Below, piece by piece: positions 3,798-38,144 of a stretch of 64,000 nucleotides of DNA. The translations under genes were made by a program, and so were the position numbers. Where the stretch lies: the NCBI GenBank assembly GCA_000196815.1, contig FP929003.1, positions 1,697,501 to 1,761,500 of the forward strand, read 5' to 3'. The notes beneath the pieces were generated by a model. The model was given only the letters and a program-made list of their open reading frames with translations, made no database searches and was not told the DNA's origin. The first letter of the stretch is position 1; each line of letters opens with the position of its first letter. Source of the stretch: Nitrospira defluvii (GTDB lineage: Bacteria > Nitrospirota > Nitrospiria > Nitrospirales > Nitrospiraceae).

Positions 3798-5660
3798 TCA
3801 AGGCAGCTCCTCCAGCACCCCCCGGCGCATGCCCGCGATGGCTCGATCGGCGGATTCAGCCAGCGAGGGGTGGGTGGCTTTGAGGGTTTTCAATTGAGAG
3901 AGAAACTCGATCGTGCGCGCGAAGAGCCGGAACATGTCGCCTTCGGCCATCGTAGTCAGGCGGGCCAGGCCGATCCAGGTCAGCGTCTGATCCGCGACCC
4001 AGCGTTCGGTCAAGGCCGCGACATCGGCACGGAGCATCGGAGGCGCCTCGTGCGGCGCGAGACTTTCTGCCAGCTTCCGGACCTGGAACAGGAGCGTCAC
4101 CAGCCCGGCGCTGCCGCGTGGAAACGACCCGGGGCGATCGTCGTCGTGCGCGATACTGGCCATGACGGCGGCGAGTAGCGGCGGATCGATGGCGCCGAAG
4201 GCCTCGGCCCGGATCAGTTCCGTAATCAGGAGGGAATGGTCGATGCGAATCAAGCGCGCCCACTCGCCGTCGGCGGTGAGCTGTGCCGTCGCGTTCAGAT
4301 AACCGAAGCGTTCGAGGACATCGATGCGCTCTTGAAACCGGTGCCACAAGCTGGTCTGGAGTGCTTGAATCGATTTCATGTGCCGCTGGATTTCCTGGCG
4401 GATCCGTGAGGCCTTGGGGAAGTCGCGTTGACAGGCCTGACGTGAGGGACAGGTGGGGCAGGCGAAATCGCCAAGGGTTTGGATGATGGAACTATCGAGC
4501 GGAATCTCTTCGTTCTGATGCGTCAGAATCGGCAGAATCGGGAGCCGCGGCGGCAGATCCAGCAGATGGTGTGTGAGTTGCTCCAATGTCTGCGGCGTAC
4601 ACCAGGGATAGGAGGAGGTTTCCTCGCAGTCGAACGTGCGATCGAAGACTTGTGTCACGATGGACGCGGGGCATTCATTGAGGGAGCCGCCGTCCCGCAG
4701 CAACGTCACCATCGGCGCATGCTGGCCTTTGCTTCGATACTGGCGCAGGATGATGCCGCGTCCCCGGATCAGCCCGACGACGCGTCCCGGCGTCAGGAAA
4801 TGTAGGCGCGCGGCGACGTCGGGCGATTCCTGCCTGGCCGACAGGCCGCGCGGTTTCTTCCGTTTCCGGGCCTGATCGAATACCTGCCACTGCGTGATCC
4901 AATCCGAGCAGACCCGCGGACCGAAGGGTTCCATTTCGGCGCGCAGGCCATCGAGTTTGGTTTCGAGCACGGCCGTGCGCTGGTTCAACTGAAATTGGGC
5001 GAAGCTTTTCGCGAGAATGGACTGGATCTGTTCGCGCGGGTGCGCTTTGAGCAGGTTCAACACCATCGGGTAACTGATGACGAATTGGCTGTGAATCGCT
5101 TCCGGTTGTCCCGTGAGCCCTTTGGTCAGGACGGTGAGATCGATGTAGGGCGACGGGGTGATGACGGCGAATCCGACCAGGTCTTTGCCGCGGCGGCCGG
5201 CCCGGCCGGCCAGTTGCTGAATCTCGCTGGCGGTCAAGTCGGTAAAGTCGCGCGCCTTCCGAATGCTGGATTGCGTCACGACCACCGTGCGGGCGGGAAA
5301 ATCGACGCCGGCGGCGAGAGTCGTGGTGGCGAAGACGGCATCCAGGGACCCGGTGCGCATGAGTTCTTCGACGGCGATCTTCCAGGAGGGGAGATGGCCC
5401 GCGTGATGCGCCGCCACACCGATCCGTTGAACCGTGTCGATCAGCGGGTGTTCCGCAATGCTGGGATATTGTTCGGTGACCTGGGTCAGGACGCGGGCGA
5501 TCTGTTCCTGCTGCGTCTTGGGCAGGATGACCTGGCTGCGTTCGAACGACTGCATCGCTTCGTCGCAGGCCCGTCTCGATGTGAGAAAGATAATCGCAGG
5601 AGTGAGATTTCTTTGGCGGAGCGTCGCGACCAGATCAACCGGATGAATCGACGGCGGCAT
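3798..5660 (-). CDS. Ski2-like helicase, RecA2 and C-terminal half encoded separately
   Basis: 620 residues. The protein begins directly with the second RecA domain: IIFLTSRRACDEA (23-35), AAHHAGHLP (83-91), the Ski2-type motif V FATTTLAAGVDFPART (110-125) and motif VI QLAGRAGRRG (149-158). About 450 helical residues follow, as in the winged-helix, ratchet and later domains of Ski2/Mtr4/HelY enzymes. A cysteine cluster, C-x2-C-x5-C, lies near residues 400-408 and may bind a metal. There is no Walker A or B, so ATP binding must come from the product of the downstream gene. The start overlaps the last 26 bases of glgC, which argues for translational coupling. In the transcript the C-terminal half precedes the N-terminal half, the reverse of the usual domain order. 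Confidence 0.8.
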   Translation of the reverse strand: MPPSIHPVDLVATLRQRNLTPAIIFLTSRRACDEAMQSFERSQVILPKTQQEQIARVLTQVTEQYPSIAEHPLIDTVQRIGVAAHHAGHLPSWKIAVEELMRTGSLDAVFATTTLAAGVDFPARTVVVTQSSIRKARDFTDLTASEIQQLAGRAGRRGKDLVGFAVITPSPYIDLTVLTKGLTGQPEAIHSQFVISYPMVLNLLKAHPREQIQSILAKSFAQFQLNQRTAVLETKLDGLRAEMEPFGPRVCSDWITQWQVFDQARKRKKPRGLSARQESPDVAARLHFLTPGRVVGLIRGRGIILRQYRSKGQHAPMVTLLRDGGSLNECPASIVTQVFDRTFDCEETSSYPWCTPQTLEQLTHHLLDLPPRLPILPILTHQNEEIPLDSSIIQTLGDFACPTCPSRQACQRDFPKASRIRQEIQRHMKSIQALQTSLWHRFQERIDVLERFGYLNATAQLTADGEWARLIRIDHSLLITELIRAEAFGAIDPPLLAAVMASIAHDDDRPGSFPRGSAGLVTLLFQVRKLAESLAPHEAPPMLRADVAALTERWVADQTLTWIGLARLTTMAEGDMFRLFARTIEFLSQLKTLKATHPSLAESADRAIAGMRRGVLEELP

Positions 5661-26551: not shown

Positions 26552-26559
26552 ATCCGACG

Positions 26560-26677
26560 GAGGCTGAAAACCATCACCAGCGGCGTTCTCGCGTCATTCA
26601 GATCCTCAACCTACCGCAAGGGTACGCCTCGGACCTTCACGCGCTGCGGCCTTGCTGCTGACGCTTTTGAGCCTCCT
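26560..26677 (+). repeat. ~120-bp terminally inverted intergenic repeat, copy B
   Basis: Starts GGAGGCTGAAAA and ends with the inverted GAGCCTCC, so the terminal stem changed in both arms together. It carries the 18-mer core CCGCAAGGGTACGCCTCG. Lies between cysK and the first E1 gene. Confidence 0.72.
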
Positions 26678-27995: not shown

Positions 27996-28022
27996 ATCTG
28001 CTCCTGGGAAGATAAGAGTCTG

Positions 28023-28146
28023 GCAGGATACTGAAAATGTCCGCCAGCGACGTTCTCGCATCTCTCAGGTCCTCAACGTACCGCAAGGGTACGCCTCGTC
28101 CCTTCGTTCGCTACGGCCTTGCTGGACGGCCATATTGAGTATCCTG
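28023..28146 (+). repeat. ~120-bp terminally inverted intergenic repeat, copy D
   Basis: Starts GCAGGATACTGAAAA and ends with the inverted GAGTATCCTG. The G-to-A change in one arm is matched in the other, which keeps the terminal stem. Contains the 18-mer core. Confidence 0.75.
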
Positions 28147-30891: not shown

Positions 30892-31011
30892 GGGATGCTC
30901 AAAAAGCCGTCCAGCAAGGCCGCAGCGAATGAAAGGCCGAGGCGTACCCTTGCGGTACGTTGAGGGCCTGAACGAGGCGAGAACGCCGCTGGAGGGCTTT
31001 TTCAGCATCCT
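30892..31011 (-). repeat. ~120-bp terminally inverted intergenic repeat, copy F (inverted)
   Basis: The same element in opposite orientation: the core reads CGAGGCGTACCCTTGCGG, and the ends are GGGATGCTCAAAAA and TTTTTCAGCATCC. It fills most of the gap between the monooxygenase and the nucleotidyltransferase-like gene. The runs of A and T at the arms make it terminator-like in both directions. Confidence 0.77.
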
Positions 31012-31794: not shown

Positions 31795-32528
31795 CTTGTC
31801 GATCCAGTATCACAATCGGTTCTGTTGTCGGGCTGTGCCTTCTGCTGCTGTTGGTCGCAGTGCCGGTCGGATTTGCCCGTGAGCCTGTGCCGTCCTATGA
31901 CCCGCAGGGCTATGTCAGCGACCATGCCGGAGTGATTGATGCGGAGTGGCGTGCCAGAATCCGGTCGGTCTGCCAGGATCTGGAGCGCAAGACCGGGGTG
32001 GAAATGGTGGTCGTGACCGTGCCCGCACTGAAACCCTATGGCTCAGCCAATGACTACGCGGTCGGTCTCTATCAGAAATGGGGCATTGGCTCAGCCCAGA
32101 ATGAGCATGGTGTGCTGGTGCTCCTGTCGGTGCAGGAGCGGCAAGCGGCTGTGACCATGGGGCGGCGGATGTTGCCGGTGATGGGCGGAAATGTGGTCGG
32201 GAAGGTCGGGCATGAATATCTCGACCCCGCCATCAAGAACGGCCACTTCGGCGAAGGACTCTATCGAACCGTCGTGGGGTTGGCGTCGGTCTCCCAGGAC
32301 ATTCGTGTGTCGAACGTGCAAAAGGCGCACTTTCGCGGACTCGGCTTCTGGATCACCATCACCACGGCCAGCGGCGCGTTGTGGTTTCTCTGGTGGCTCA
32401 GCCGGCCTGATTTGCGCCATCCCTATGGGCGCATCAGAAAAGGCCAATACTGGGGGAGTGGACAGGGCGGGTTCGGGGGTAATTTCGGGGGCCACGGTGG
32501 AGGGATGAGCGGGGAGGGGTGGAAGTAG
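31791..32528 (+). CDS. Membrane-anchored TPM-domain protein
   Basis: 245 residues. A signal or anchor helix (about 10-30) is followed by a TPM domain (about 40-165) with YVSDHAGVIDAEWRARI, TGVEMVVVTV and WGIGSAQNEHGVLVLLS. A second transmembrane helix lies at about 185-205, and the tail is Gly-rich (GGFGGNFGGHGGGMSGEG). The architecture is that of the YgcG/psb32 group, sometimes linked to photosystem repair in plants and envelope stress in bacteria. Overlaps the preceding gene, so co-expression is likely. Confidence 0.82.
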   Translation: MTCRSSITIGSVVGLCLLLLLVAVPVGFAREPVPSYDPQGYVSDHAGVIDAEWRARIRSVCQDLERKTGVEMVVVTVPALKPYGSANDYAVGLYQKWGIGSAQNEHGVLVLLSVQERQAAVTMGRRMLPVMGGNVVGKVGHEYLDPAIKNGHFGEGLYRTVVGLASVSQDIRVSNVQKAHFRGLGFWITITTASGALWFLWWLSRPDLRHPYGRIRKGQYWGSGQGGFGGNFGGHGGGMSGEGWK

Positions 32529-32532
32529 GGGA

Positions 32533-32629
32533 GAGGGTGGGCTGATGGGTCCTCAACTGCTCGCGGAACGCGCACACTGAGAAGGTGCTCGTCCGACGCA
32601 CGCAGTTGAGGACCCACCAACCCACCCTC
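32533..32629. repeat. Long imperfect hairpin repeat after the TPM gene
   Basis: Outer arms GAGGGTGGG and CCCACCCTC, and inner arms GGGTCCTCAACTGC and GCAGTTGAGGACCC, pair perfectly, separated by short internal loops. It starts five bases after the TPM stop, so it could also end the transcript. Confidence 0.65.
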
Positions 32630-32799
32630 TTATGAAGCGAAGCGAGCAAGCTTGGAAGGAGTATTTGATAGTCGGCTCGCTCGACTGCTCATCGGCTGCG
32701 GATAGTCCGGCCAGTCAAAGGGTTCGATTTTGGTTGATGTGCGATCGCAAGACCTGACCCCAAACTCTGCGGGCAGGTTGAGTTCAAGTCTCGTTAAAA
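32630..32799. other. Non-coding junction between repeat and ArdC remnant
   Basis: No gene seen. Homology to the ArdC remnant begins abruptly near 32800, so a recombination junction probably lies in this stretch. Confidence 0.4.
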
Positions 32800-33456
32800 G
32801 GGGGCCATGTCCGCAAAGGCGCGAAGGGCTCTATGGTCGTCTATGCCAACTCCATCACGCGCACGGAAACCGATGACAAAACCGGCGAGGATATCGACCG
32901 CGAAATTCACTTCATGAAAGGCTACACCGTGTTCAATGTTGAGCAAATCGAAGGCTTGCCTGCACACTACTATGCCAAGCCCGCGCCGCGCTTCAATCCC
33001 ATCCAGCGTATCGCGCATGCCGAGCAGTTCTTTGCCGCTTTGAATGCGGATATCCGTCAGGGCGGGACACAGGCCTACTACGCGTAGCAATCAGACTACA
33101 TCCGCATGCCCATCTTCGAGGCCTTTCAGACTGCCGAAAGCTATTACGCCACGCTGGCTCATGAGTCCACGCACTGGACCAGGCATCCTTCATGCCTCAA
33201 CCGCGACTTTGGCCGCAAGCAATGGGGTGATGAAGGCTATGCCGAGGAAGAACTTGTCGCCGAGCTTGGCGCGGCGTTCCTGTGCGCTGATCTTGAGCTG
33301 ACATTACAGCCGCGTGAGGATCATGCGTCCTATATTGCCCACTGGCTCAAGGTCTTGCAGAACGACAAGCGGGCGATCTTTTGCGCTGCTGCCCATGCCC
33401 AACGTGCCGCCGATTTTCTCCACAAGCTGCAACCGTCTTCACAAGAGGCCGCCTGA
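32800..33456 (+). pseudogene. ArdC-type antirestriction/zincin pseudogene, truncated, with amber stop
   Basis: The reading frame starts in the middle of the N-terminal domain (GGHVRKGAKGS, then VVYANSI) and stays in one frame to the C-terminus. A TAG at 33085-33087 interrupts it in the segment QAYYA*QSDYIRMP. The zinc motif HESTH, the downstream FGRKQWGDEGYAEEELVAEL and the family's C-terminal helix are intact. Full ArdC proteins are about 300 residues and protect plasmid DNA from restriction during conjugation. This is therefore a relic of a plasmid or integrative element; a readthrough product or the 116-residue C-terminal part (33106-33456) could still be made. Confidence 0.82.
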
Positions 33457-33552
33457 TGGCGGCCTGGGCCTCAGGTCAACAACTGCCTTTGACATGCCTG
33501 TATGTGGTATAGAGAAGCCGTTCGCGGCTCTCTATAACTGAGGTGGTGGAAC

Positions 33553-34095
33553 ATGACGCTCGCTCGCTTCACGATGATCGTGGCACTTGGTTGTTCATCG
33601 GTCGGAATGGCATCCGGGCAGGAAAGTTCTCCGAGGAATATCGGCGAAAGCAGCGCTACAACCGCTTTGGATCGGTACGATCAGAAGAGCCACCAAATTT
33701 TTGCGACGCTGACCGAGCGTGCCGAGTTGTTCGAGGCGAAGGCGAAGTTCGCCGCCCAGTGCGTGAAAGGCCTTCAGCTGATACAGAAAGTGGCGGCGCT
33801 CACCGCGCCGAAAGATGATGATGAAGAGGAGGCACAGTGGACACGCGAGACGTTTTTCCTGGTTCGCATGTGGTTCGGTAAAGAAGACCAGGATGAATGG
33901 TACTTCGCCGGACAGGAAATGGCTGACTACGGGAAAGCTCTGATGGAGGAGGCTCACAGCAAGGAGGAGGCCCTGGAGGTCTACAAGAAATTGTTTGCCC
34001 TGATCACGAATGCCCAAATCGCCGTCCTGGAAAAGATGTCCCACGATCTCGACGCACGAATGAATCGCATGATCGAGACTCCCGGCTCCGACTGA
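33553..34095 (+). CDS. Exported helical protein of unknown function
   Basis: 180 residues, with GAGGTGG before the ATG. The signal peptide ends near GMASGQES. The mature part is almost wholly helical and charged, with a highly acidic loop (KDDDEEEAQW). A hairpin (33511-33533) lies between a TTGACA box at 33489 and the start. The last 27 bases of this gene recur at 36470-36496. Not recognised. Confidence 0.6.
   Translation: MTLARFTMIVALGCSSVGMASGQESSPRNIGESSATTALDRYDQKSHQIFATLTERAELFEAKAKFAAQCVKGLQLIQKVAALTAPKDDDEEEAQWTRETFFLVRMWFGKEDQDEWYFAGQEMADYGKALMEEAHSKEEALEVYKKLFALITNAQIAVLEKMSHDLDARMNRMIETPGSD
34069..34095. repeat. 27-bp imperfect direct repeat, left copy
   Basis: Matches 36470-36496 in 25 of 27 positions. 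It covers the last codons and stop of the preceding gene. Confidence 0.7.
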
Positions 34096-34453
34096 TCCCG
34101 TGCGCACCACCGTAACTCTCCGCCATATTTCTTCCGGCACCCGGGAGAATATCCCGTTTCCCTCTCACGCAATGCCCCATCCTTCCTGACCATGATTTTA
34201 AAGAGGGGATTGTTCTGTCGTACGACCTGCATCGCCGCATGCCAGCGGAGCTGATCATTTGCGCTGCGTGAGGGCCGTGACGCCTGCGTTGCCGCTGTGT
34301 GCTCCCGCTTCTTGAAATTGGCTTCCGTGTTCGATGACACTGGCGTCATGGACAACCCTTGATTATTCGGTGTTGCATGATACTCGCGTCCCTTTAGTGC
34401 GGCCTGGGTGAGTGTGCCACGACTTGGAGTGGTAGCATAAGTCAAGCGGCTCT
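34096..34453. other. 358-base stretch with no supported gene
   Basis: Downstream of two convergent genes. One long minus-strand frame crosses it but lacks family features and continues antisense into the neighbouring gene, so I do not call it. Confidence 0.45.
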
Positions 34454-36226
34454 TCACTTAGGCGACGGCACGTTCACCGGACACGACGTTCGAGGTTCAG
34501 AGACGTTCTGCTTTGCAAAGGCTCGAACGGATTCAGACGGAAGCGGTCCGTTGGCATTCCAATAAAAAACCCTCTCTGCGGCGGTACCAGCAGCTGTTGC
34601 TGGGCCAACAAGGTACGTACATTCCGCAATTGAGTACTTCTTCTCGTGAAGGGCTTGCCGCACATAAGTCGGTATCATGATTGATGTGTACGTGCGGTCT
34701 GGAGTGAGATGCACAAAACTAAGCTTTTGAATACTTACGGAGGAAAGCCCCTGACGTCCAGCATTCTTGTTTATCCACATCATAATATGTTCATCATCCT
34801 CTGGTAGGGGGAAATCGGGTGAAAATGTAGGGAGAACGTTATCATAGAAACGTTCAACCGATAACTCTCCTGAGACATGTATTTTCTCCGTGTAGGAGTT
34901 GTCATTATTAGGTAGGCGACTCTTCGAATAGTCGCTGGTTACATATCGGGTCATATTGTCCATGAACCGAACTGTACCTGGGCTTCCGCAGGATTTCCGA
35001 GGTAACAGTATCTCGATGGCAGCTCTGGCCTTTGCAGCTCTCTCCCGATATTCCAATACAACGGCATCCGCCCACCTACGTTTGTTCTCCGTCGAATCTT
35101 TGGGGTTCTCAGACACCGCCGACACAAACTTCCCAAAGAGTCCTGCGGCATATTCATTGCCGGAGAAGATAAAGGTGTCTCGGTAGTGAGGTTCCATAGT
35201 AATAATAAATTTCTCCCTTACGTAGGTCTTTGTTACGGTACCAAATAAACCTCTGCTAATGTCATCTAAGCGATCCCACGTCTCTACTACAGTGACAGCA
35301 TTACGAGATAAAAAGTCATGACATAATTTGTCATTTTGAATAATCATACCTCTATAGATCATGATCGGAAGATCCCGAACATCTTCTCTTTCCGAAAGAT
35401 CATGGAAGTTACCGTTATAGATCATCAGGAAAAGCCTTTTGTGTTCATTGTCGATTCCAGACAGGTTTAACTGACCATCCGCAGTCATGTTCGTGGCGGC
35501 AAGCTTTTCCTCGGCAGCACGCTGCCGAGCGTGAGCTTCGTCTGCCCGTTTTTTCCATTTATCCCGGACCTTTTCATCATTCGTAATGACTTGAGACTGA
35601 CCCTCGCGCTCTGATCGGGGCGTGCGCAAGTCTAGCAAGCTTTCATATCCATACATGAAATATTTGCGATTGCCCCAATGGTCGATCTTTACTTCTGTCT
35701 GACTTAAGCTCCCGCCTTTGTCGATATTGTTGGGAACCTCGTTTCCTCCAGGGATCTCCTGAACCTCTGGGGATTCTTTTAGAGACGGATAGTCAATTCG
35801 CACCCCTTTAATATAGTTAAAAATATAAATTCTTCTTAGCTGGTTACATCGAGCCTTTAGGATCGGGAGGATTTCTCGTTCAAGTCTTTCCCTATAGGTG
35901 TCATTATTTACGAGAACGAAATCCGCGCCTACCTTATACACTTGCTTTAACCAAACTTGGTCTGGCTCGTAACACCATCCCCTTTCAGTGTTCCTCCCAT
36001 ACAGCACATAGAGGTCAGTCTCCAGAAGCTTTTCAAAGGTGCTAAAAGTTTTTTCCATCTGAGGCTGTTTCGGTGGCAGGGGCTGCCTGATCGGTTGTTT
36101 GTTTTCCCAGGGCTTCTCAGCGGTTTGCTGACCAGGGAAGGTTGCTGTGCCAGGTTTGGGCATCTTGCATCCAGACATGGCGAATGCCAATAATACCGAT
36201 ATGATCGCAACCCATCCTATGCTCAT
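34454..36226 (-). CDS. Large orphan lipoprotein in AT-rich DNA
   Basis: 590 residues. The lipobox AMSGC gives a lipidated cysteine at residue 20, so the protein should be membrane-anchored. A proline-rich linker follows (about 22-55), then a mixed domain with no motif I recognise, a charged coiled-coil-like segment (about 228-250), and a C-terminal part containing scattered cysteines. The coding sequence is visibly richer in A and T than the rest of the window and uses many A/T-ending codons. With the 27-bp repeats and the IS fragments on either side, this points to acquired DNA. Function unknown. Confidence 0.7.
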   Translation of the reverse strand: MSIGWVAIISVLLAFAMSGCKMPKPGTATFPGQQTAEKPWENKQPIRQPLPPKQPQMEKTFSTFEKLLETDLYVLYGRNTERGWCYEPDQVWLKQVYKVGADFVLVNNDTYRERLEREILPILKARCNQLRRIYIFNYIKGVRIDYPSLKESPEVQEIPGGNEVPNNIDKGGSLSQTEVKIDHWGNRKYFMYGYESLLDLRTPRSEREGQSQVITNDEKVRDKWKKRADEAHARQRAAEEKLAATNMTADGQLNLSGIDNEHKRLFLMIYNGNFHDLSEREDVRDLPIMIYRGMIIQNDKLCHDFLSRNAVTVVETWDRLDDISRGLFGTVTKTYVREKFIITMEPHYRDTFIFSGNEYAAGLFGKFVSAVSENPKDSTENKRRWADAVVLEYRERAAKARAAIEILLPRKSCGSPGTVRFMDNMTRYVTSDYSKSRLPNNDNSYTEKIHVSGELSVERFYDNVLPTFSPDFPLPEDDEHIMMWINKNAGRQGLSSVSIQKLSFVHLTPDRTYTSIMIPTYVRQALHEKKYSIAECTYLVGPATAAGTAAERVFYWNANGPLPSESVRAFAKQNVSEPRTSCPVNVPSPK

Positions 36227-36294
36227 GTATTAGCCTTTCGATGTTTCTCAAGCGCGAGAACAAGAGATTGACGCGATAGGAATTATTGTAACGG

Positions 36295-36438
36295 TCACAT
36301 CAAGGTGGCCCAGAAACAACACACATGTAGATTACACGTCTCCATCTGCCTTTCGAATTCATCGAGACTCCGATAGCCAAGCGCCTGATGGAGGCGCTGT
36401 TGGTTATAGAACACCTCGATATACTCATGCAATCGCAT
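36295..36438 (-). pseudogene. 3' remnant of an IS3-family transposase (orfB)
   Basis: About 47 codons. HEYIEVFYNQQRLHQALGYR followed by SLDEFE is the C-terminal signature of the IS3 integrase core. Everything upstream of it is missing, including the DDE residues. The junction to unrelated sequence falls at about 36438. Confidence 0.78.
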
Positions 36439-36469
36439 ACCAGGCCTCCGCGTGATGCGCCCAGCACGG

Positions 36470-36496
36470 ATGATCGAGACTCCCAGCTCCAACTGA
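36470..36496. repeat. 27-bp imperfect direct repeat, right copy
   Basis: Two mismatches from 34069-34095. It lies between the IS3 scrap and the end of the IS110 element. Confidence 0.7.
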
Positions 36497-36532
36497 CTGC
36501 CCGTAAATAGGGGTCAGCAACTGTCTTGAAAA

Positions 36533-37732
<1,200 letters not shown>

Positions 37733-37859
37733 TCAGGCGAATGATCGGTTTAGTGAGGAATGCCGACCAATTGGAGATGGTGATGCTATGCGATGGGGTA
37801 ATTCATCTGCCTGTTTCCAGATGGCAGATCCTACAGCGAATAAATTTGTTCGTGAGAAA

Positions 37860-38144
37860 TTATCCGCGTCCGGGGCCGTTCATACCGAGGTATGAACGGC
37901 GAGATGCTCGTTTAGGGCGAGTGGTGAGGCGTCGGGTTGCCTCCGACATCTCAAGGAGAGAGCGGAGGGCTGCGTTGACCGCAGCCGAGTCTCGAAATGC
38001 TTTTGCGACATCCGGTTCTAGGACCGCAACATTGGCGCCTTCTTGCAGTAATTGTCGGTAATATTTCCCCCGGACTGCTGTCGTGTAGTCGAAGGTGTAT
38101 TCCGGCCGCATCACATCCGAACGAGTTTGCCGTTTACGTTTCAT
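37860..38144 (-). CDS. Antitoxin-like partner of BrnT
   Basis: 94 residues from the ATG at 38144, with AGGAGAAAG upstream. The basic start MKRKRQTRSDVMRPEY, then RGKYYRQLLQEGANVAVLEP and DVAKAFRDSAAVNAALRSLL, match a common small family found directly after BrnT toxins. It acts presumably as antitoxin and autoregulator, which is inferred. The toxin reading frame that overlaps its start is broken, so the antitoxin is orphaned. An extra basic C-terminal tail follows the conserved part. Confidence 0.62.
   Translation of the reverse strand: MKRKRQTRSDVMRPEYTFDYTTAVRGKYYRQLLQEGANVAVLEPDVAKAFRDSAAVNAALRSLLEMSEATRRLTTRPKRASRRSYLGMNGPGRG

Follow-up and report, generated by a model that had tools for sequence, protein, structure and literature searches.

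The 64,000-nucleotide (nt) stretch of the Nitrospira defluvii genome analysed here (assembly GCA_000196815.1, contig FP929003.1, positions 1,697,501 to 1,761,500, forward strand; hereafter the window) carries a gene for a predicted lipoprotein between two imperfect direct repeats, the first of which is the 3' end of an intact 180-residue gene (Table 1). We propose, with a probability of about 0.5, that the lipoprotein gene was inserted by integrase-free recombination anchored on the 3' end of the 180-residue gene, and that the product was later eroded by insertion sequence (IS) elements. On this view the segment is more likely the decayed product of recombination than a mobile element that is still active. 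An initial annotation had likened it to an insertion that rebuilt the 3' end of its target, an idea that finds partial support here. In favour of that idea are the unique repeat, the apparently rewritten gene tail and a parallel insertion in another genome (G150) for which a further genome (G172) preserves the empty site; it is weakened by the lack of an integrase, by the lack of an empty site for the window and by the IS elements that hem in the right repeat copy. Compared genomes and loci are cited below by G and L numbers.

Table 1. Features of the window around the lipoprotein gene (ORF, open reading frame; bp, base pairs)
Feature	Position	Strand	Basis or extent
Variable segment, limits approximate	32640..37898		Synteny across 20 relatives, of which 17 have the two flanks on a single contig
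Two ORFs, ArdcN (below Pfam cut-off) and MPTase-PolyVal	32833..33456	+	Broken ArdC-like antirestriction gene
180-residue gene with duplicated 3' end	33553..34095	+	ORF, homologues
Left repeat copy	34069..34095	+	End of the 180-residue gene
Stretch behind the 180-residue gene	34149..34333		Homologous (75%) to what follows this gene in G096
DNA in common with the G150 lipoprotein locus (76%)	34401..36253	-	Gene with 27 bp ahead of its start and about 50 bp beyond its end
Predicted lipoprotein, 590 residues	34454..36226	-	ORF; MSGC lipobox-like motif, by eye
IS3 remnant	36303..36456	-	3' end of transposase gene and terminal sequence
Right repeat copy	36470..36496	+	Inside a 54-bp scrap, 36457-36510, from the IS3 break to the IS110 end
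IS110-family element	~36511..37680	-	DEDD_Tnp_IS110, Transposase_20; ends estimated from differently flanked copies elsewhere

The recurrence of a 27-mer with two mismatches, as originally annotated, was confirmed, and its left copy is indeed the end of the 180-residue ORF. Extended by 3 nt (from 34066 and 36467), the copies are identical at 27 of 30 positions, with three mismatches. The worry that the repeat might be common elsewhere in the genome was dispelled: the whole single-contig genome (4,317,083 bp) contains exactly these two matches at up to three mismatches, which rules out a member of a dispersed family. No comparable match appeared in 100 shuffles of the window, and none of 60 relatives had a copy when searched with a 25-nt pattern at up to three mismatches, N. 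defluvii being the sole carrier among the 61 genomes. A chance repeat is ruled out by the shuffles, the genome-wide uniqueness and the absence from these relatives. A control scan of the 64-kilobase (kb) window, seeded with exact 13-nt matches, returned five direct-repeat pairs of at least 27 nt and at least 88% identity lying 200-8000 bp apart. The studied pair was one of these, and three of the other four resemble a single dispersed repeat by eye.

The end of the 180-residue gene departs from those of its homologues. Matches to this gene were found in 5 of 269 genomes of the class, its own included; amino acid identity was 71% in G096, 58% in G112, 57% in G006 (whose copy has one stop) and 29% in the distant G150 homologue. 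Among the 61 genomes the gene is confined to N. defluvii and G006. Near the stop codon, a 14-nt stretch, whose limits were chosen after looking, matches each of G096, G006 and G112 at 6 of 14 positions, as against 12-14 of 14 among the homologues themselves; the adjoining stretches are identical to G096 at 13 of 13 and 11 of 12 positions. This patch lies within 15 nt (34069-34083) that are identical, 15 of 15, in the two repeat copies. The last codons of the gene thus appear to have been rewritten in the N. defluvii lineage, and the rewriting is linked to the repeat. Over the nine bases after the stop, the right copy matched G096, G006 and G112 at 5, 4 and 4 positions and the left copy at 3, 0 and 2, a weak difference on too few bases.

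The same gene end bears on a second explanation, in which the right copy is all that is left of a tandem second 180-residue gene, the rest of which was removed by IS3 and IS110, and the lipoprotein gene arrived independently between the two copies. The position of the right copy would suit such a loss, as it lies 14 bp from the IS110-family element and the 30-nt match starts about 10 bp from the broken IS3 edge. Partial copies of the gene do exist, since G112 has a 5' fragment about 1.6 kb upstream of its intact copy, together with a 28% relative. On the other hand, the identical 15-nt core holds a patch foreign to the gene family, and none of the five matching genomes has two full close copies. 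We consider a lost tandem copy possible but rather doubtful.

The lipoprotein gene has a foreign composition and a sporadic distribution, and we read it as horizontally acquired cargo. Its guanine-plus-cytosine (GC) content is 46.8% against 58.9% for the window, bearing out the unusual base composition first remarked on; of 312 overlapping windows as long as the gene, 1 has a lower value. A profile search found the family in 5 of the 269 class genomes and in the same five of 395 genomes of the phylum: N. defluvii, G024, G099, G150 and, as a broken copy, G134. Among the 61 genomes it is confined to N. defluvii and G024, where it lies on a contig other than that of the studied locus. Each of the five members is at a different locus with different neighbours, and the four unbroken genes are AT-rich relative to their surroundings. 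In a genome-contig collection, the single protein sequence found no match and a two-row alignment found one locus, apparently on the same contig as in G024. From the export signal and the scattered distribution, our guess is a surface or periplasmic location for a protein that comes and goes as cargo.

Searches for relatives outside the family were negative. The N. defluvii protein had no Pfam or PHROGs family at E 0.1 (NCBIfam and PADLOC lay outside this search), the G150 protein had no PHROG and no Pfam family above cut-off, and the G024 and G099 proteins had no Pfam family above cut-off. A profile search against solved structures gave a best E of 0.093, which is not significant, and the 60 matches listed were all named P450; the structure predicted from the two-row alignment had a mean predicted local distance difference test score (pLDDT) of 29. 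A search against phage and conjugative-element proteins had been suggested; the lipoprotein had no match in 50,697 phage records, 72,556 plasmid records or viral contigs, and a phage, plasmid or viral origin of the lipoprotein is not supported by direct match.

A parallel to the window was found in G150. There, a lipoprotein gene of this family and an 860-residue ORF lie between an intact gene that Pfam assigns to the endonuclease/exonuclease/phosphatase family and its duplicated 3' end (the last 218 nt, 92% identical), and the end of the endonuclease gene matches these two places alone. The insertion measures 5,181 bp. G172 carries the precise empty site, at which the DNA to the left of the far copy runs straight into the gene (position 5144 of L052 is followed by 10326), and with which G116 and G151 agree (19 and 60 unmatched bases, against 19 and 59 expected). 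In alignment with other genomes, what follows the far copy of the gene end is the sequence that follows the empty site, and a different one follows the intact gene, as expected if incoming DNA had rebuilt the gene end. The two copies are almost the same over some 150 bp, with flanks that differ by about a fifth; this looks more like a homologous exchange with a conversion tract than like a short integrase core. The 860-residue ORF also starts like a lipoprotein (by eye), and it showed marginal C-terminal similarity to the window's lipoprotein (E 0.009, in a single comparison). Insertion with duplication of a gene 3' end is thus established for the G150 cargo and, by analogy, would account for the window; for both we infer the recombination route.

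The DNA in common with G150 ends short of both 27-mers. The idea of a small mobile unit was not borne out by this comparison, since what the 27-mers bound is not what the two genomes have in common, and a conserved mobile unit between the 27-mers is ruled out by the ends of the G150 homology at 34401 and 36253. The approximately 50 bp after the lipoprotein gene that belong to this common DNA look hairpin-like by eye. The 27-mer was absent, at up to seven substitutions, from 14-18 kb around the lipoprotein copies of G150, G099, G024 and G134. In G134 the end of a tRNA-Ser gene recurs as an exact 29-nt repeat (L054, 6466-6494 and 6665-6693, 199 bp apart), beside the broken lipoprotein gene; this repeat lies across the tRNA from the lipoprotein remnant and does not enclose it.

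Under the proposed scheme, incoming DNA with a homologous gene end would have paired with the resident gene end. One crossover of the Campbell type, or one homologous and one illegitimate joint, would then add the cargo and duplicate the tail, giving the order intact gene, cargo, displaced old 3' end. A self-encoded integrase would not be required. IS3 and IS110 would later have trimmed the displaced tail to about 54 bp.

Both IS families are represented at the right copy. The IS3 remnant lacks an intact DDE transposase and retains a C-terminal end (rve_2, E 0.0013, below the Pfam cut-off); its limits match a relative in G010 that has a 343-residue transposase ORF. The IS110 assignment rests on DEDD (E 1.2e-24) and Transposase_20 (E 6.7e-19) domains, which span 36536-37714. 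The window resembles these families in having both transposase signatures and differs in that here the elements flank, and would have trimmed, a repeat. IS3 and IS110 alone would not make the 27-bp repeat, the target duplications of IS3 elements being shorter. In G010 an apparently intact IS3 occupies the same chromosomal locus (L072, approximately 3876-5130) and is followed by about 20 bp resembling the right end of IS110 and then by the common flank; it looks as if IS elements replace each other at this spot in G010 and the window. The 54-bp gap between two IS elements could also be read differently, the second tail being filler copied from the nearby gene during break repair between IS3 and IS110, unrelated to the lipoprotein. 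Such filler would leave both the deviating tail of the intact gene and the G150 parallel unexplained, and we regard it as very improbable.

Further displaced gene ends were sought at the endonuclease gene in 59 genomes of the genus of G150, at E 1e-10, a threshold at which shorter fragments may be missed. Besides that of G150, nineteen loci were fetched, selected because they had strong matches or secondary fragments. G101, G122 (two) and G167 have displaced 3' fragments that share a contig with the gene, and G116 and G129 have weak candidates; the 3'-end fragment of G131 lies on a different contig, so that its place relative to the gene cannot be given. In G122 and G167, gene and fragment are separated by a PIN-domain gene that has a small partner upstream; the G122 partner has no Pfam match. 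In the alignment, the fragment of G101 and one of the two in G122 have the same first base, preceded by a foreign arm common to both, which favours a preferred joint. In G122, two successive displaced 3' fragments and the PIN-domain gene lie behind the intact gene (L084, 4821-7214), an arrangement suggestive of repeated insertion at the end of one gene. The endonuclease locus of G099 (L102) gave one gene match, with the 3' end uncovered, and no match to the left flank of G150. Near the endonuclease gene of G168, an exact duplication of 3,982 bp (L098, 1-3982) lies 4,460 bp apart and may be an assembly artefact.

The geometry and length of the repeats would also fit a site-specific integrative element that used the gene 3' end as its attachment site and lost its integrase, with the 27-mers as attachment sites. 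In integrative and mobilizable elements (IMEs) that target gene 3' ends, the direct repeat includes the target gene end, according to the account in PMC5704250. The window likewise shows a direct repeat (27 nt, two mismatches) with one copy that includes the intact target gene end. The lipoprotein gene of G024 lies 38 bp from a tyrosine-integrase fragment, and the start at one aligned base of the G101 and G122 fragments would also suit an integrase. The other hallmark of IMEs and of integrative and conjugative elements, an encoded integrase, was not found. The lipoprotein and IS3-remnant ORFs have no integrase domain in Pfam, and the window gave no match to two tyrosine-integrase queries (tblastn, E 1e-3). 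Each query found itself as a positive control, and one matched the other weakly; the remaining 47 stretches searched, the window included, gave no integrase match at E 1e-3, two queries with which a divergent integrase could be missed.

The window differs in further respects from the IMEs treated in PMC5704250. Apart from the IS3 remnant, no mobility gene was recognised between its repeats, and its cargo is a single lipoprotein gene. The G150 insert holds only two ORFs of at least 90 residues each and is bounded by an imperfect 218-nt repeat, not a short one. The repeat core is absent from the gene ends of the homologues, and the lipoprotein went unmatched in the phage, plasmid and viral-contig collections. 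Taken with the missing integrase, these points make a decayed IME unlikely.

Several observations weigh against integrase-free insertion at the end of the 180-residue gene. Both repeat copies carry the new patch, and a simple crossover should leave the native patch in the displaced tail. The 34149-34333 stretch is homologous to the downstream of the gene in G096, so plainly foreign cargo begins only after 34333, and a clean start of the insertion at the stop codon would require that the incoming DNA also brought this stretch (34203-34333 of which also matches contig C2 of G150, at 84%). For the same reason, what had been described as an empty stretch between the repeats is not empty, the lipoprotein and the IS3 scrap being present as described; the ORF list also gives an antisense ORF of 158 residues at 33981-34457. 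The right copy amounts to only about 30 nt, its upstream junction is lost at IS3, and IS elements may set its visible length. The lipoprotein gene is oriented differently relative to the target gene in the window and in G150, and its copies in G099 and G024 have no clear flanking repeat. Not every displaced piece is a 3' end: that of the 180-residue gene in G112 is a 5' fragment, and a displaced endonuclease piece in G148 comes from near the gene start. Finally, none of the 20 relatives examined showed an empty site holding one 27-mer. The 180-residue target gene itself lies in a variable segment, and the empty-site comparison could therefore not succeed in these genomes.

This segment was delimited by fetching the locus from 20 of 24 relatives of the same genus (not G003, G012, G014 and G022). 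On the left, a TPM-domain gene ends at 32528 and DNA is conserved up to approximately 32.63 kb; on the right, conserved DNA resumes at 37899 or 38447 in most relatives, and the roughly 5 kb between is variable. The contig ended first in three relatives. In the other 17 both flanks were present, with a gap of 16 bp to about 5.8 kb; the 16-bp gap, in G004, resumes elsewhere (41763), as does that of G007, further to the right, and among the gaps that end at the usual place the shortest, in G002, measures about 65 bp. Twelve of these 17 relatives hold ORFs of at least 75 residues and five hold none. The cargo includes a double TIR-domain protein, a DUF5655 protein and an FGE-sulfatase protein, and G019 and G008 carry one common cargo. 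With conserved flanks and varied content, the locus is a horizontal-transfer hotspot.

At this locus, both the lipoprotein gene and the 180-residue gene are missing from all 20 relatives; 19 lack the 180-residue gene altogether, and G006 has it elsewhere, on a contig that differs from that of the left flank, with a right-flank-like match about 29 kb away. The broken G006 homologue sits just outside what looks like a small integrated element, in which the end of a tRNA-Arg gene is repeated 6,275 bp away (L010, 2375-2421 and 8650-8696; 47 nt, 96%) with a tyrosine integrase beside the tRNA. Within the hotspot of the window, the broken ArdC-like gene is a sign of a decayed mobile region. Imperfect palindromes at its left edge (32532-32630, and L064 4251-4509) recur nearby in some relatives and could promote local turnover. 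To the left of the segment, a dispersed repeat of about 120 bp (30893-31011) has several copies in the genome and many relatives among the matches listed, about 83-93% alike, and looks like a small non-coding repeat family; 26559-26656 and 28022-28098 resemble it by eye.

Comparable recombination has been proposed elsewhere. For type VI effector arrays and rhs loci, PMC5361080 describes a proposed homology-facilitated illegitimate recombination with displaced 3' ends. There, as here, an incoming module uses a conserved stretch as its anchor and moves old 3' ends downstream one after another (compare G122); here, ordinary genes provide the 3' end that serves as anchor, and their function bears no relation to the cargo. 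For hotspots of horizontal transfer that lack mobile elements, homologous exchange at the core genes on either side has been proposed (PMC5635113). The window is similar in its conserved flanks, its varied content and the absence of an integrase match to the two queries, and it differs in that exchange at flanking genes, not duplication of a 3' end, was proposed there. A literature search of titles and abstract openings, which is not proof of absence in print, found nothing on the lipoprotein or the displaced-tail pattern in Nitrospira.

A tentative generalization, which we think has a low chance of holding, is that Nitrospira-type bacteria gain small cargo such as lipoproteins and toxin pairs without an integrase, using ordinary gene 3' ends as landing pads. 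Each arrival would replace the tail of the gene and displace the previous one downstream, so that a readable succession of ends would build up, as may be seen behind the endonuclease gene in G122 and G150 and, in eroded form, behind the 180-residue gene in the window. The lipoprotein that drew attention to the pattern belongs to a family without a match in the protein-family libraries searched (Pfam and PHROGs). If the pattern holds, it would offer a testable case of gene gain by gene-end-anchored recombination, and displaced gene tails would give a simple means of dating gains of cargo in nitrifiers and putting them in order, including at loci without a recognised mobile element.

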